64,000 nt of DNA from an uncultured Rhodobiaceae bacterium (lineage in GTDB: Bacteria > Pseudomonadota > Alphaproteobacteria > Rhizobiales > TMED25): assembly GCA_913045225.1 (NCBI GenBank), contig CAJWPC010000003.1:94705-158704 (forward strand), in the 5' to 3' direction. The notes under the pieces are model-generated. The model searched no databases. It was not told the DNA's origin and worked only from the letters and a program-made list of their open reading frames with translations. This document shows, piece after piece, positions 4,533-58,295 of the stretch. Position 1 is the stretch's first letter. Each line of letters starts with the position of its first letter. A program made the translations under genes and the position numbers.

Positions 4533-5399
4533 ATGTCAAAAGCTGGTGGTGAATATAAAGAAGTATTATTTGAAATTAGAAACAAAGTTGCATGGATTTC
4601 AATAAATAGACCTGAAGTAAGAAACGCATTCCGTGAGCAGACTCTGGATGAGTTAACTGACGCTGTTCTATCTACGCGTAACGATCCATCAATCGTGTGT
4701 GTTGTGATTAATGGGGTCGGTGATAAGGCTTTCTCCGCAGGTGGTGATTTTCATGCAATGATGAGATTAGATTGGATCAACGCAGCGCACTGGAATGACC
4801 GCATGTTAGCGCTAGCAATGGCTATTAGAGGCCTACCAATACCAGTAGTTGCATCTGTTCATGGCTACTGCATGGGTGGTGGTCACGAGCTTGCACTATG
4901 GTGTGATTTGGTTATTGCTGCGGATGACGCAATATTTGGCCAAAGCGGTGCAGTAGTAGGGGCTTGTCCTACTGTTGGGGCAACTCAATATCTTCCACAA
5001 CTAATTGGGTCAAGGTTAGCAAAAGAAATGATTTTTATGGCGAGACGATTCACTGCAGAAGAAGCTGTAAGCATCGGATTAATCAATAAAGTGGTTCCAA
5101 AAGATAAGTTAGACGAAGAAACCCAAAAGTGGTGCGAGGGGCTTATTGAGAGAAGCGGTCAGACCATAAGACAGACAAAGAAATCACTCAATCATGACTC
5201 TGATACATTATATGCAAGTTGGCAGCATGGTATGGAACTTCTCGCTCATGTGTGGGGTTCTGAAGAGTCTCTTGAAGGTATGAATGCATTTCTCGAAAAA
5301 AGGAAACCCGACTTTCAGCAGTTCCGTGAAAGAAGAAAAGAAAATGTTGAGGCATATCTTGATGGACTTGATAATGATGAAAACGAAAGACCTAACTAG
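4533..5399 (+). CDS. Enoyl-CoA hydratase/isomerase family protein, MenB/BadI-like
   Basis: A 288-residue crotonase-superfamily protein that would act on a CoA ester. The oxyanion-hole segments are AFSAGGD (66-72) and MGGGHELALWCD (114-125). Glu119 sits where crotonase has its first catalytic Glu, but the second one (FGQPE in hydratases) is FGQSG here. That feature, the AIFGQSGAVVG region and the C-terminal FLEKRKPDF motif resemble the MenB and BadI branch (ring closing and ring opening) more than fatty-acid hydratases. The start at 4533 follows AGAGG. It lies 45 bp after the VOC gene and 17 bp before the CaiB-type gene, so it is almost surely cotranscribed. Confidence 0.85.
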   Translation: MSKAGGEYKEVLFEIRNKVAWISINRPEVRNAFREQTLDELTDAVLSTRNDPSIVCVVINGVGDKAFSAGGDFHAMMRLDWINAAHWNDRMLALAMAIRGLPIPVVASVHGYCMGGGHELALWCDLVIAADDAIFGQSGAVVGACPTVGATQYLPQLIGSRLAKEMIFMARRFTAEEAVSIGLINKVVPKDKLDEETQKWCEGLIERSGQTIRQTKKSLNHDSDTLYASWQHGMELLAHVWGSEESLEGMNAFLEKRKPDFQQFRERRKENVEAYLDGLDNDENERPN

Positions 5400-5416
5400 C
5401 GAAAAAAGGACAATTT

Positions 5417-6616
5417 ATGGCTAAAAAAGAACAGGGCCCTCTAACTGGCATTAAGGTGCTAGACTTAAGCAGAATATTGGCGGGCCCATTTTGTACTATG
5501 AATCTTGGAGATATGGGTGCAGAAATCATCAAGATTGAGCAACCCGGAAAAGGTGATGACACAAGAGCGTGGGGCCCTCCATTTGCAGGGAGCGAAGCTG
5601 CATATTTCCTCGGTATTAACAGAAACAAGAAAAGTGTGACATTAAACTTAAAATCTGAGGAAGGTATCGACATCCTAAAACGACTACTCAAGGAAGCTGA
5701 CGTTCTGATAGAAAATTTTAAGTATGGGACAATGGATAGCTATGGGATCAGTGACGAATGGAGAGAGAAAGAAGCACCTCGGCTCATACATTGCCAGATT
5801 ACAGGATATGGTGGTAGAGGTCCAAGAGGTAAAAGACCAGGGTATGACTTTCTGCTTCAAGCTGAAAGTGGGCTAATGAGTATCACAGGTGAAGAAAATG
5901 GAGAACCAATGAAAGTTGGTGTTGCATTAGTCGATATATGTACAGGGATGAATGCAACAATATCTATTTTGGGAGCATTAAATTCCAGATACAACACTGG
6001 TAAAGGGCAAAAAGTAGAGACCAGCTTATACACAACCAGCATTTCGATGTTAGTTAATGTTGCGGCGAATCATCTTGTTAGCGGTAAGCCAGCAAGACGA
6101 TTTGGAAATGGGCACCCAAATATCGTGCCCTACAGGACTTTTGAGGCGAAAGATGGTAGTATTGCTATCGCTGTTGGAAATGATGCTCAGTTTGCAAAAT
6201 TTGCCGCATGTTTGAACAAAGAAGAGTGGGCAACAGATACAAGGTTCACTAAAAATGCTGATCGAGTAATAAACAGACAATTAATCGATCAAGAAATACA
6301 AAATGTTATTGCAAACAAAACAGTTACAGAATGGCTTGAGAAGTTATTGAGTTCAGACATACCTGCAAGTGCTGTGAATTCTGTTGAAAGTGCACTGGCA
6401 GATGAACAGACTATAGCCAATGACATGGTCGTAAATATAGAACATTCAGAAGCCGGAACACTCAAGATGTTGGGTGTCCCATATAAATTTTCTGATACAC
6501 CAGCTCAGATAGATAAAGCGCCACCACTTCTTGGAGAAGATAATAATGATGTCTTAGCCTCCCTTGGATACGACGAAGAGTATATAAAAGACCTTCATAC
6601 AAAGAACGTTATTTAA
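5417..6616 (+). CDS. CaiB/BaiF (class III) CoA-transferase, SUGCT-like
   Basis: A 399-residue class III CoA-transferase that moves CoA between carboxylic acids through an aspartyl-CoA anhydride. It has the N-terminal Rossmann segment LDLSRILAGPFCTMNLGDMG (about 15-34), the GDDTRAWGPP motif (46-55), and the catalytic Asp144 in PGYDFLLQAESGLM. The C-terminal half closes with PPLLGE. Overall wording is close to succinate/hydroxymethylglutarate CoA-transferase (SUGCT), so a dicarboxylate acceptor is plausible; this is recall, not a search. An AAAGGA site precedes the ATG. It sits between the crotonase and the two-subunit CoA-transferase. Confidence 0.9.
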   Translation: MAKKEQGPLTGIKVLDLSRILAGPFCTMNLGDMGAEIIKIEQPGKGDDTRAWGPPFAGSEAAYFLGINRNKKSVTLNLKSEEGIDILKRLLKEADVLIENFKYGTMDSYGISDEWREKEAPRLIHCQITGYGGRGPRGKRPGYDFLLQAESGLMSITGEENGEPMKVGVALVDICTGMNATISILGALNSRYNTGKGQKVETSLYTTSISMLVNVAANHLVSGKPARRFGNGHPNIVPYRTFEAKDGSIAIAVGNDAQFAKFAACLNKEEWATDTRFTKNADRVINRQLIDQEIQNVIANKTVTEWLEKLLSSDIPASAVNSVESALADEQTIANDMVVNIEHSEAGTLKMLGVPYKFSDTPAQIDKAPPLLGEDNNDVLASLGYDEEYIKDLHTKNVI

Positions 6617-53149: not shown

Positions 53150-54100
53150 ATGAATCAAACATCAGAATATGCAATTGAGACAAACCGTCTAAATAAGATT
53201 TATCAGCCAAATAACAAAAAATTAGCAAAGCATGCGCTAATTGACTTCACAATAAAAATTGAGCCAGGGCAAATATATGGATTGCTTGGGCCAAATGGGG
53301 CAGGTAAATCAACATTTATAAATATATTAGCAAATCTTGTAATTAAAACTTCAGGAAATGCAAAAATTTTAGGATTCGATATTGAAAAGGAAAAAAGAAA
53401 AGCAAGGTCAGCTATTGGTATCGTACCTCAAGAGTTAAACCTTGATCCATTTTTTAAACCAGTTGAGGTACTTGAAACCCAAGCAGGTTTATACGGTATT
53501 CCAAAAAAAGATCGTGACTCAATGGGGCTTTTAAGGATATTGGGTCTAGAAGATCAAGCGTATTCATATTCAAGAACGTTATCTGGGGGGATGAGAAGGC
53601 GGCTTTTGATTGCAAAAGCTCTAACACATAAACCAAGGGTTCTTGTACTTGATGAGCCAACTGCTGGTGTTGACATTGAGTTACGTCACCAATTATGGGA
53701 CTTCGTTAGAGAGCTAAATAGTAAAGGAACAACTATATTACTTACGACACATTATTTAGAGGAGGCTCAGTCACTTTGCGATCATATCGGTATAATCAAT
53801 AAAGGTCGTCTTGTAGCTAATGCTCCAACAAAAGATCTACTAGATAGTCTCGATAGAAAGCAAATATCAATAAAAGCTGATGTTAAGCAAAAGAATATAA
53901 ATATCCAAATAGATGGAGTTAGTAGCGTAGAAAACAATCAGGATGGTTATATTGATATTACATATCAGCCAAGTAAAACAAATTTTTTCGATATTTTGCA
54001 GCAACTTGAAAATCAAGATATATCCATAATTGACATAATTTCGAAAGAAACCGACCTAGAGGATATTTTTCTTGAATTTATAAGGGAGAATAAAAAATAG
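53150..54100 (+). CDS. ABC transporter ATP-binding protein (YadG-like)
   Basis: A 316-residue ABC-2-type ATPase. The Walker A is LLGPNGAGKSTF (about 44-55), followed by the Q-loop IVPQELNLD, the signature LSGGMRRRLLIAKAL (about 145-159), the Walker B RVLVLDEPTAGVD and the switch His in LLTTHYLEEAQ. A C-terminal extension of about 90 residues is typical of the drug/lipid export class. No permease gene is adjacent; the next gene is on the other strand, so the membrane partner must lie elsewhere. The ATG has no clear ribosome binding site. Confidence 0.92.
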   Translation: MNQTSEYAIETNRLNKIYQPNNKKLAKHALIDFTIKIEPGQIYGLLGPNGAGKSTFINILANLVIKTSGNAKILGFDIEKEKRKARSAIGIVPQELNLDPFFKPVEVLETQAGLYGIPKKDRDSMGLLRILGLEDQAYSYSRTLSGGMRRRLLIAKALTHKPRVLVLDEPTAGVDIELRHQLWDFVRELNSKGTTILLTTHYLEEAQSLCDHIGIINKGRLVANAPTKDLLDSLDRKQISIKADVKQKNINIQIDGVSSVENNQDGYIDITYQPSKTNFFDILQQLENQDISIIDIISKETDLEDIFLEFIRENKK

Positions 54101-54125
54101 GGACTAAATAAAACACATTAGCCCC
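54091..54125 (-). terminator. Rho-independent terminator for the small membrane protein genes
   Basis: On the minus strand GGGGCTAA (from 54125 down to 54118) pairs with TTAGTCCC (54107 to 54100), with one G-U pair and a 10-nt loop, followed by TATTTTTTATT. It lies 22 bp after the stop of the gene at 54148. On the plus strand the same stem has an A/C mismatch but may also slow transcription of the ABC gene. Confidence 0.65.
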
Positions 54126-54147
54126 CATTTTTATTTTATGAAATTAA

Positions 54148-54363
54148 CTATTTTAATTGGTCAACAACAATCAATGCTGCGATTACACCAATTAGACCAG
54201 CACCTGAGAATTGATTTATAAGATCAATCAGGTTTCCTGCTACGTCAGCGTTAATAAATGCTAATGCATCCGGGAAAAGGATTTGTAGAACAACCCCTAA
54301 TCCAACTAAAACTAACGCAACGTCAATGCCACTTCTGAGCATGCCAGTTAATGATGAAAACAT
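54148..54363 (-). CDS. Miniature two-helix membrane protein, paralog A
   Basis: A 71-residue protein with two hydrophobic helices (about 14-36 and 49-68) and a short linker DALAFINADVAGNL. It is a clear paralog of the protein at 54459: both share a LRS/LKS start, an LQxLFxD block, DVxGN, QF and a GLxGxIAA second helix. No known family is recognised. A GGGAGAA ribosome binding site precedes the ATG at 54363, and codons are less AT-rich than in neighbours, suggesting high expression. It is the second gene of the pair and is followed by a terminator. Confidence 0.75.
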   Translation of the reverse strand: MFSSLTGMLRSGIDVALVLVGLGVVLQILFPDALAFINADVAGNLIDLINQFSGAGLIGVIAALIVVDQLK

Positions 54364-54458
54364 GTTATTTCTCCCATTTGTTATAAAAAAAGTTTAACAA
54401 AATTTACAGTGCCTACAATAAACTAAACACCATAAATTCCTTTATCATAGTGCTTGAG

Positions 54459-54692
54459 CTACTTCCGACTAATTAAGTATGCAACGAGACCCGCGGCTAT
54501 AAGTCCAACAAGTCCTTCGCTACCAAATTGTGCCATGAGTCCACCGATGTTACCCAATACATCAATTCCGAATAGTAATACAAAACTATCACCAAACAGA
54601 ACCTGAAGCAGAGTAAGCAGTGCTACCGCCCAGAGCGCTATTTCAAGAGAGCTCTTAAGAACGCCTCTCAATTTGTCTAATAAAGCTGTCAT
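54459..54692 (-). CDS. Miniature two-helix membrane protein, paralog B
   Basis: A 77-residue protein with two hydrophobic helices (about 14-40 and 52-72), a central loop with DVLGN, and a basic C-terminus (SRK). Its sequence aligns along its whole length with the protein at 54148. An upstream in-frame ATG at 54704 is part of the ribosome binding site region; the ATG at 54692, with GGGAGAAG just upstream, was chosen. A good sigma-70 promoter lies about 70 bp upstream. Function is unknown; it could be a pore, an oligomeric membrane scaffold or a stress peptide. Confidence 0.75.
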   Translation of the reverse strand: MTALLDKLRGVLKSSLEIALWAVALLTLLQVLFGDSFVLLFGIDVLGNIGGLMAQFGSEGLVGLIAAGLVAYLISRK

Positions 54693-54758
54693 AACTTCTC
54701 CCATCTTTATTTTCTATTTTTTAGCGTTTTAAACTTAGTAAATAGAATCACTATTTAA

Positions 54759-54786
54759 AGTCTATGTGTGCCGAAAAAATAGTCAA
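54759..54786 (-). promoter_or_regulatory. Sigma-70 promoter for the small membrane protein pair
   Basis: On the minus strand TTGACT (54786-54781) and TAGACT (54764-54759) are 16 bp apart, giving a leader of about 60 nt to the start at 54692. A 7-bp inverted repeat, AAGTGAT (54785-54791) with ATCACTT (54801-54807), overlaps the -35 edge and could be an operator. Confidence 0.45.
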
Positions 54787-54962
54787 GTGATTAAAAATTT
54801 ATCACTTTACCAATATTTTAGTAGCCAAATAGTTGATAAAACCTTAATTATAATTTAATTGTTTGGCATAATTCTATGCAAAGGAAAGATATTTTTTTTT
54901 GATAATTACAAATAAATTAAAAAAGATTTATTTCAAATCTTCATTTTTAATCAGAGCAAATA

Positions 54963-55925: not shown

Positions 55926-56189
55926 TCAGGATTTTAATTTATGCAGGGCAATGCTTAATATTATGAGTATAAAAAGAAGAATTTGTCCATTAACATATAT
56001 TTCATAGAATTTATCAGACTCGTTCCATAATGCATATGTCCAATAGGTATTAGAGATCAGTGGCAGACTTGCACTGAGTACTCCAATTACAAACCCATTT
56101 TTTACAAATGCGATACCAACCGTGAGTAGATAAGAAATAATCCCTAACAACACAGTTAGTCTTATTAATAATTCATATATTAGTTTCAT
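55926..56189 (-). CDS. Small membrane protein, unknown
   Basis: An 87-residue protein with three hydrophobic segments (about 8-28, 32-52 and 66-84), the middle one followed by an aromatic stretch (NTYWTYALWNES). No family is recognised. It ends 8 bp from the 3' end of tRNA-Arg on the opposite strand. The ATG at 56189 has no strong ribosome binding site, so this call rests on the clean membrane-protein character and the lack of any competing gene. Confidence 0.55.
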   Translation of the reverse strand: MKLIYELLIRLTVLLGIISYLLTVGIAFVKNGFVIGVLSASLPLISNTYWTYALWNESDKFYEIYVNGQILLFILIILSIALHKLKS

Positions 56190-57939: not shown

Positions 57940-58242
57940 TTAGACTGCTAGCCATTTTTTTATATTATTTATAGTCTTCATTAACTCCACTTTTCTCAGA
58001 TAAGGATCCTTTATTCTAAGTTTTTCTTCGAATGATTCTGCAAATATATGACCTTTTTCTAAGTTATTTCTTATGTAGTGTAAAACCCCTTGCAGATCCT
58101 CCTCTCCTATCTCATTTGAGAAGCAAGACTCTTGTATATTATTCATTTTTCTTAAGAAGATTTTTTTTTCATGATCCTCTAAACTTTTCTCAGACCAATC
58201 ACCTCCGAAAGCAACATTTTTTAATTGTTTTTTTTTCTCCAT
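57940..58242 (-). CDS. Hypothetical protein, soluble, charged
   Basis: About 100 residues from the ATG at 58242 (another ATG at 58254 would add four residues). The composition is charged and helical, with no membrane segment, no Cys pair and no motif I recognise. It contains EKSLEDHEKKIFLRKMNN and EEDLQGVLHYIRNN. It is convergent with the SMR gene and divergent from the Y-family polymerase gene, with a poly-A-rich stretch between the starts. Confidence 0.5.
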   Translation of the reverse strand: MEKKKQLKNVAFGGDWSEKSLEDHEKKIFLRKMNNIQESCFSNEIGEEDLQGVLHYIRNNLEKGHIFAESFEEKLRIKDPYLRKVELMKTINNIKKWLAV

Positions 58243-58295
58243 AGTATAGAACAAAATAAGAACAAAAATAAAAAAAATAAAGAAAAAAATTATAA

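Follow-up and report, generated by a model that had tools for sequence, protein, structure and literature searches.

Two neighboring genes, A and B, encode paralogous small membrane proteins of a family that is carried by several groups of bacteria and by T4-like viral contigs. We establish here this family, its conservation, its gene organization and its presence in those contigs. In the libraries and literature searched, the family is apparently undescribed. As a tentative reading, held with less than even confidence, we favor that it is an abundant oligomeric protein of the host inner membrane and that it serves T4-like phages as an auxiliary gene.

Gene A (54459–54692, minus strand) encodes a 77-aa small membrane protein of the A subfamily, and gene B (54148–54363, minus strand) encodes one of 71 aa of the B subfamily. 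Both lie in the window, which refers to the whole 64,000-nucleotide stretch of DNA that was analyzed, and are flanked by polA/ABC-transporter genes and a short-chain dehydrogenase gene. A sequence-only reading had proposed these two ORFs, and both were confirmed, on the minus strand. It had also held that they arose by duplication, which is supported. A and B share 41% identity across 64 aa with an E value of 8e-11 in a two-sequence BLASTP comparison, and in a 75-row tree, which has 69 columns and many open forks, the A clade (100/99) and the B clade (100/94) are sisters joined at 97/89. In the genome that the window comes from, the family profile matches these two genes and no others.

The A–B pair occurs in 14/14 genomes of the window's family (f1), and its order is constant with similar spacing in the 14 genomes compared. 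Among the 13 named contigs with the pair (L021–L033), four are labeled OCS116 cluster, four Rhodobiaceae, two Rhizobiales, two Hyphomicrobiales and one Alphaproteobacteria. In the aligned rows, identity to the window copy is 87–100% for B and 75–99% for A. When conservation was ranked against five related contigs, using 10–13 matching window proteins per comparison with A and B included, B came first and A second in all five comparisons. Incidentally, two other small minus-strand ORFs of the window, at 55926–56189 (87 aa) and 57940–58254 (104 aa), are conserved in related genomes and have no Pfam match at E 1e-5, and the first of them is hydrophobic.

A plan of two membrane helices had been read from A and B, and the wider family supports it. 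Lys and Arg are more numerous in the two ends than in the loop in 81/81 distinct bacterial sequences and 13/13 viral representatives, so both ends are predicted to be cytoplasmic. Helical moments, calculated with the D sequences (described below) excluded, mark two amphipathic segments, one N-terminal (hydrophobic-moment p 0.006) and one ahead of TM2 (p 0.003). In the predicted topology, a cytoplasmic amphipathic helix leads into TM1, the chain then forms a short amphipathic stretch on the outer side and returns through TM2, with both ends cytoplasmic. Conservation moments do not reach significance for TM1 (p 0.73) or for TM2 (p 0.44), so neither helix has a clearly variable face. The earlier suggestion that the proteins may oligomerize fits such helices.

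The AF2 model of A (pLDDT 81, pTM 0.53) has helices at 2–33, 35–41, 45–55 and 57–76, and that of B is poor (pLDDT 65.6, pTM 0.35). Foldseek with the two models gave no significant PDB match, the B model being too poor to support a negative, and a sequence search of PDB gave nothing significant.

That no known family could be recognized from the two sequences agrees with profile searches. A and B have no match in Pfam and only sub-cut-off matches in NCBIfam. With a wider member set, the best E values are 0.00096 in Pfam (DUF5708, one member), 0.0041 for DUF2976, 0.00025 each in NCBIfam for PRK13852 (10/36 members) and TIGR03745 (2/36), and 0.0012 in PHROGs for phrog_3087 (4/36). The PRK13852 match spans one TM segment and scores 12–15 bits against a cut-off of 206 where scores are shown, bits and cut-offs being available for singly scanned members only. 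Assignment to a known Pfam, PHROGs or NCBIfam family was rejected, as the matches are weak and mutually inconsistent, but their recurring type-IV-secretion flavor keeps some weight. PADLOC gives no match for the five members scanned, and searches of papers for peptide strings found none. The portions of the literature on small membrane proteins, OCS116 and T4-like phage genes that we consulted do not name the family.

Upstream of A is a promoter-like element, TTGACT-16-TAGACT (54759–54786, minus strand), which scores 9/12 by consensus. It had been called a good promoter, and this call stands by conservation but not by score. The region contains 3 sites against 9.2 expected in shuffles, whereas the −35 block, AATCACTTGACTATTT, is unchanged in 13/13 aligned genomes and TAGA of the −10 is kept in 12/13. 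An inverted repeat, AATCACT...AGTGATT (54746–54792, minus strand), brackets the promoter, and both blocks are nearly invariant in 13 genomes; it could act as an operator. Closer to the gene, covariation and fold indicate a 5′ UTR hairpin, CUAUUU/AAAUAG (54712–54747, minus strand). It has two-sided changes at 2/7 pairs, and its covariation score is reached by 0/500 shuffles, although 2/5 measures of the test fail to exceed shuffles.

The ribosome binding sites had been read correctly, as GGGAGAA precedes the ATG of both A (54696–54702, minus strand) and B (54369–54375, minus strand). Between the genes, a hairpin (54400–54439, minus strand) is present in the consensus fold of 13 sequences and in the single-sequence fold of the window, and some relatives fold this region differently as single sequences. 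The consensus and window folds also contain a possible stem (54363–54399, minus strand), in which a U-run would pair with the RBS of B. When intergenic and RBS stems are taken together, two-sided changes are found in 3/26 pairs of the consensus fold.

A terminator claimed after B (54093–54132, minus strand) is confirmed by direct reading, which gives a loop of 10; the scanner, which allows loops of 3–8, missed it. The same element is found in close relatives, and in one of them, L026, the terminator with the same 14-bp stem and 10-base loop was detected. It is readable both ways and, by reading, would serve the convergent plus-strand ABC-transporter gene too. On the other hand, the claim of high expression from codon choice is not supported. 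Codon usage gives no sign of it, with A 67th and B 17th among 67 mechanical window ORFs (A being scored from an upstream start, 81 aa), on an index that discriminates poorly because its reference genes, from the ribosomal/rpo region, average 0.69, below many window genes. Codon adaptation was therefore dropped as evidence of expression.

Distribution in bacteria was examined with several samples. The A+B profile finds relatives in 37/385 sampled Alphaproteobacteria genomes, and a broader profile finds them in 41/385, with G065 and G391 partial or weak, leaving 344/385 without a match. In a phylum-wide sample, only 2/398 genomes match, the window's own counted. The gene can be core, as in f79 (15/18 genomes, 6/6 good genomes), f53 (5/6 genomes) and f59 (10/10 genomes, two copies each), and is patchy in f48 (11/28 genomes). 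A scan of named genomes yielded 29 loci, 11 of which come from MAGs of Gammaproteobacteria or of unplaced Proteobacteria (Arenicellales, Acidiferrobacteraceae and others). No gene neighbor is conserved across lineages.

Duplication is recurrent within the family, with several events. The A and B clades are common to the OCS116 group, to Rhodospirillaceae/Rhodospirillales- and Rickettsiales-labeled MAGs and to one further genome; because they spread over several groups, the A/B duplication is old. A separate duplication produced D, a fast-evolving second partner (97/94). Strong D matches occur in nine genomes, each adjoining a C-type gene; once its weak matches to other family members are counted, the D profile hits 29/385 genomes altogether. 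By reading, 15 of the 41 genomes with the family have tandem pairs, and five have two dispersed copies.

Bacterial genes of the family are usually stand-alone units. An SD motif precedes 70/80 members with enough upstream sequence, compared with 92/368 control genes, a control biased low because its mechanical starts are the first start codon. A terminator is found 3′ of 44/58 rows against 8.8 expected, where the rows include near-identical sequences and two of them (L021, L025) are A genes and not last genes. When these two and eight D rows are removed, the count by reading rows is 43/48, and D genes have a terminator in 1/8. Of 23 tandem pairs, only nine have an individual intergenic hairpin with z below −2.5; a stable hairpin between paired genes would fit products made in unequal amounts. 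In the C–D pairs L115, L118, L124, L117 and L121, the intergenic sequence contains a GC-rich hairpin, and 3/5 of their D genes have no SD motif and 4/5 no terminator.

Viral relatives were found in IMG/VR. A scan with an alignment of A/B relatives gave 258 stretches encoding relatives, and other queries gave 271, 400 and 142, sets that overlap and are not additive. The best 80 of the 258 stretches were examined as viral contigs. They were checked for 12 clusters whose representatives match PHROGs, namely dUTPase, Hsp20, DNA polymerase, ThyX, UvsX, phosphoribosyltransferase, ribonucleotide reductase, RuvC-like resolvase, major head protein, head scaffold, tail tube and DNA helicase. At least one cluster is present in 80/80 contigs and at least two in 70/80, and at least one of the first five named is present in 57/80. 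A replication or structural hallmark (for example, DNA polymerase, UvsX or gp23) is present in 45/80, and a structural one in 14/80. Incidentally, one IMG/VR entry with a C-type member (L292, 6951 bases) has a gene content that looks bacterial by eye, so IMG/VR matches need not all be phage.

The best cultured match of gp23 in L196 is Pelagibacter phage HTVC008M (61%), and the polymerase of L197 has 52% identity to Synechococcus phages. The carriers are thus taken as uncultivated relatives of pelagimyophages and cyanomyophages. From this kinship we infer that they are marine; the contig records show no habitat. In the isolates HTVC008M, Mosig and Melnitz-3, no match was found in stretches of 34–41 kb that include gp23 and Hsp20 (HMM, best E 0.094). 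Neither did tblastn against cultured phages and plasmids find a match, and its low-complexity filter may hide such hydrophobic queries.

Most of the 80 viral contigs have one of four immediate upstream neighbors: dUTPase (40), phosphoribosyltransferase (15), a gp23-type head protein (14) or ThyX (five). No lysis gene is among the identifiable immediate neighbors in these contigs, several downstream neighbors being without identity. In 207 viral loci, which include some contigs repeatedly, there is one family copy each within the stretch seen. Among the best 80 gp23 loci (more exist), the family gene follows gp23 in eight, and in those eight gp23 is at least 67% identical to the query. In L377 and L379, gp23 is in the same identity range and room is present, but the family gene is absent, while L376 has no sequence there. 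As its presence 3′ of gp23 varies, the family gene comes and goes at this slot.

Two kinds of gene next to the viral copies were recognized by eye. An Amt-like gene, an ammonium transporter by eye, comes after the family gene in 8/80 viral loci (in L183, L189 and L191, around 5267–6526), and one copy of it has a PHROGs match only to a family without known function. Downstream in L180, L204 and L166, a run of genes adjoins the family gene, and its members look like a substrate-binding lipoprotein, NMT1-like protein, ABC ATPase and permease.

An SD motif is kept in 106/115 viral copies, and a terminator follows 56/77, compared with 3.0 expected from mononucleotide shuffles. The promoter score is not enriched overall, with 13/77 at 9 or above against 16.1 expected, although the top two viral copies reach 11/12 and 12/12 where 0.2 is expected at 11 or above. 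The late-promoter motif ATAAATA is found at 12/115 viral copies and at 28/277 other genes of the same contigs, with 6.3 expected at the viral copies from mononucleotide shuffles. In a joint tree, the viral sequences, given by 13 representatives, group in a single clade (92/89) that is placed among C-type sequences of bacteria. Because this tree is short (69 columns) and unrooted, with no outgroup and many open forks, a transfer from host to virus is tentative.

We propose that A and B, as two paralogues in a family of inner-membrane proteins of 70–80 aa, would be made in large amounts. Their assembly may be a homo-oligomer, or an A+B hetero-oligomer in the OCS116 group, and such an oligomer would support inner-membrane integrity or energy conservation. 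T4-like phages would carry one copy, presumably host-derived, that could keep the membrane function going during the shutdown of host expression. The reading as a self-assembling host protein comes from a gene that is short, strongly conserved, stand-alone and terminator-bounded in bacteria and phages, repeatedly duplicated, and without a clearly variable TM face in its product. In its favor we counted the charge bias, the two amphipathic segments, the SD motifs and terminators, the conservation, the duplications, the core status, the phage gene clusters of the viral contigs and the viral clade. Against it we counted the codon usage, the 11/28 occurrence in f48, the 344/385 genomes without a match, the short unrooted tree, the lack of a conserved neighbor, the viral promoter scores, the modest share of stable intergenic hairpins (9/23) and the two 5′ UTR measures that do not exceed shuffles. 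A bolder form of this reading seems doubtful to us. It holds that the proteins form a miniature self-assembling inner-membrane family, an abundant structural or energetic component in marine Alpha- and Gammaproteobacteria, that T4-like phages took it up and inserted it at several genome positions since infection depends on it, and that some lineages would build hetero-oligomeric pairs with stoichiometry set by the hairpin.

A phage-holin-like device had been suggested from A and B alone. Of this suggestion the phage link stands, with hundreds of IMG/VR stretches and T4-like contigs, whereas the holin version is weakened. As a rival, it would make the family an oligomeric gated inner-membrane pore, serving lysis or its timing in phages and kept as a tamed copy in bacteria. 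Size, two TM helices and the N-in/C-in charge bias do match class II holins, and the gene directly follows a gp23-type head gene in 14/80 of the T4-like viral contigs that carry it. Moreover, the part of the paper available to us on Melnitz, a phage related to the carriers, does not use the word 'holin' and proposes other lysis devices (PMC9004378), so a holin role of the viral copies keeps some weight. However, the late-promoter motif shows no excess over other genes of the same contigs, the upstream neighbor is dUTPase, phosphoribosyltransferase or ThyX in 60/80, and no lysis-gene neighbor is identified. The bacterial genes are strongly conserved, core in several families and stand-alone, with strong RBSs and terminators, which also weakens a holin. 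We regard the pore or holin-like device as unlikely.

Likewise, we give small weight to the reading that the family provides a small accessory subunit to a larger complex of the inner membrane (a respiratory, transport or ATP-synthase complex) whose own genes lie elsewhere. A solitary gene that is core in several families, with TM helices lacking a clearly variable face, would suit such a subunit, but its phyletic pattern is patchy (41/385), no neighbor is conserved, and repeated duplication and phage carriage would be unusual at a fixed stoichiometry. Phage T4 Imm is a small two-TM inner-membrane protein, and the family could similarly exclude superinfection or block entry, with chromosomal copies as resident antiphage factors. 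This would suit a small two-TM protein that occurs in T4-like phages and is patchy in some bacterial families. It is quite improbable, as the strong conservation and core status are unlike typical defense genes, PADLOC finds nothing in the five members scanned, and no defense neighbors are seen by eye.

That many T4-like viral contigs encode a family which lacks annotation and belongs to the core of several bacterial families suggests a missed membrane process on which cells and viruses both depend, plausibly overlooked because the genes are short and solitary. The family would also offer a candidate phage-borne membrane gene outside photosynthesis, of about 73 residues and a single gene in phages, which is testable with A and B as defined partners in the host.

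Several known systems resemble parts of this picture. In the puf operon, light-harvesting alpha and beta are small membrane proteins encoded in tandem with an intercistronic hairpin, as A and B are. Unlike them, the family does not have His among the four commonest residues at any of the 69 aligned columns, and no reaction-centre genes are among the ten flanking proteins scanned. Light harvesting of the LH1/puf type was thus rejected for want of a conserved His ligand for bacteriochlorophyll. Dual-topology SMR/Fluc pairs are also tandem duplicated small membrane proteins, and they were rejected because the same charge bias holds in 81/81 sequences, pairs included. Type IV secretion proteins, both VirB2-like (DUF2976/TIGR03745) and VirB6-like (PRK13852), recur as weak matches; where scores are shown (PRK13852), they are far under cut-off, and no T4SS genes are nearby by eye. 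Class II holins are defined by two TM helices with both ends cytoplasmic, and they are alike in size, helix number and predicted topology. The family differs in being a core gene of several bacterial families, and in phages its late-promoter motif is not enriched relative to other genes and no neighbor has been identified as a lysis gene.

The closest parallel for the phage side may be auxiliary metabolic genes (AMGs), such as cyanophage hli and psbA. Phage carriage of a host-type gene is in itself an already known kind of phenomenon. Unlike those AMGs, the family gene has no recognized function and no match in the stretches of three isolates, and the consulted section of a paper on pelagimyophages (PMC7029224) does not name it as an AMG. 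Its carriage by phages resembles the AMG habit that has been described for pelagimyophages and cyanophages (PMC7029224). As with AMGs, a host-type gene turns up in contigs of T4-like phages, with Hsp20, ThyX or ribonucleotide-reductase genes close by, and it is encoded both in viral contigs (80/80) and in cellular chromosomes outside prophages (the pair in 14/14).
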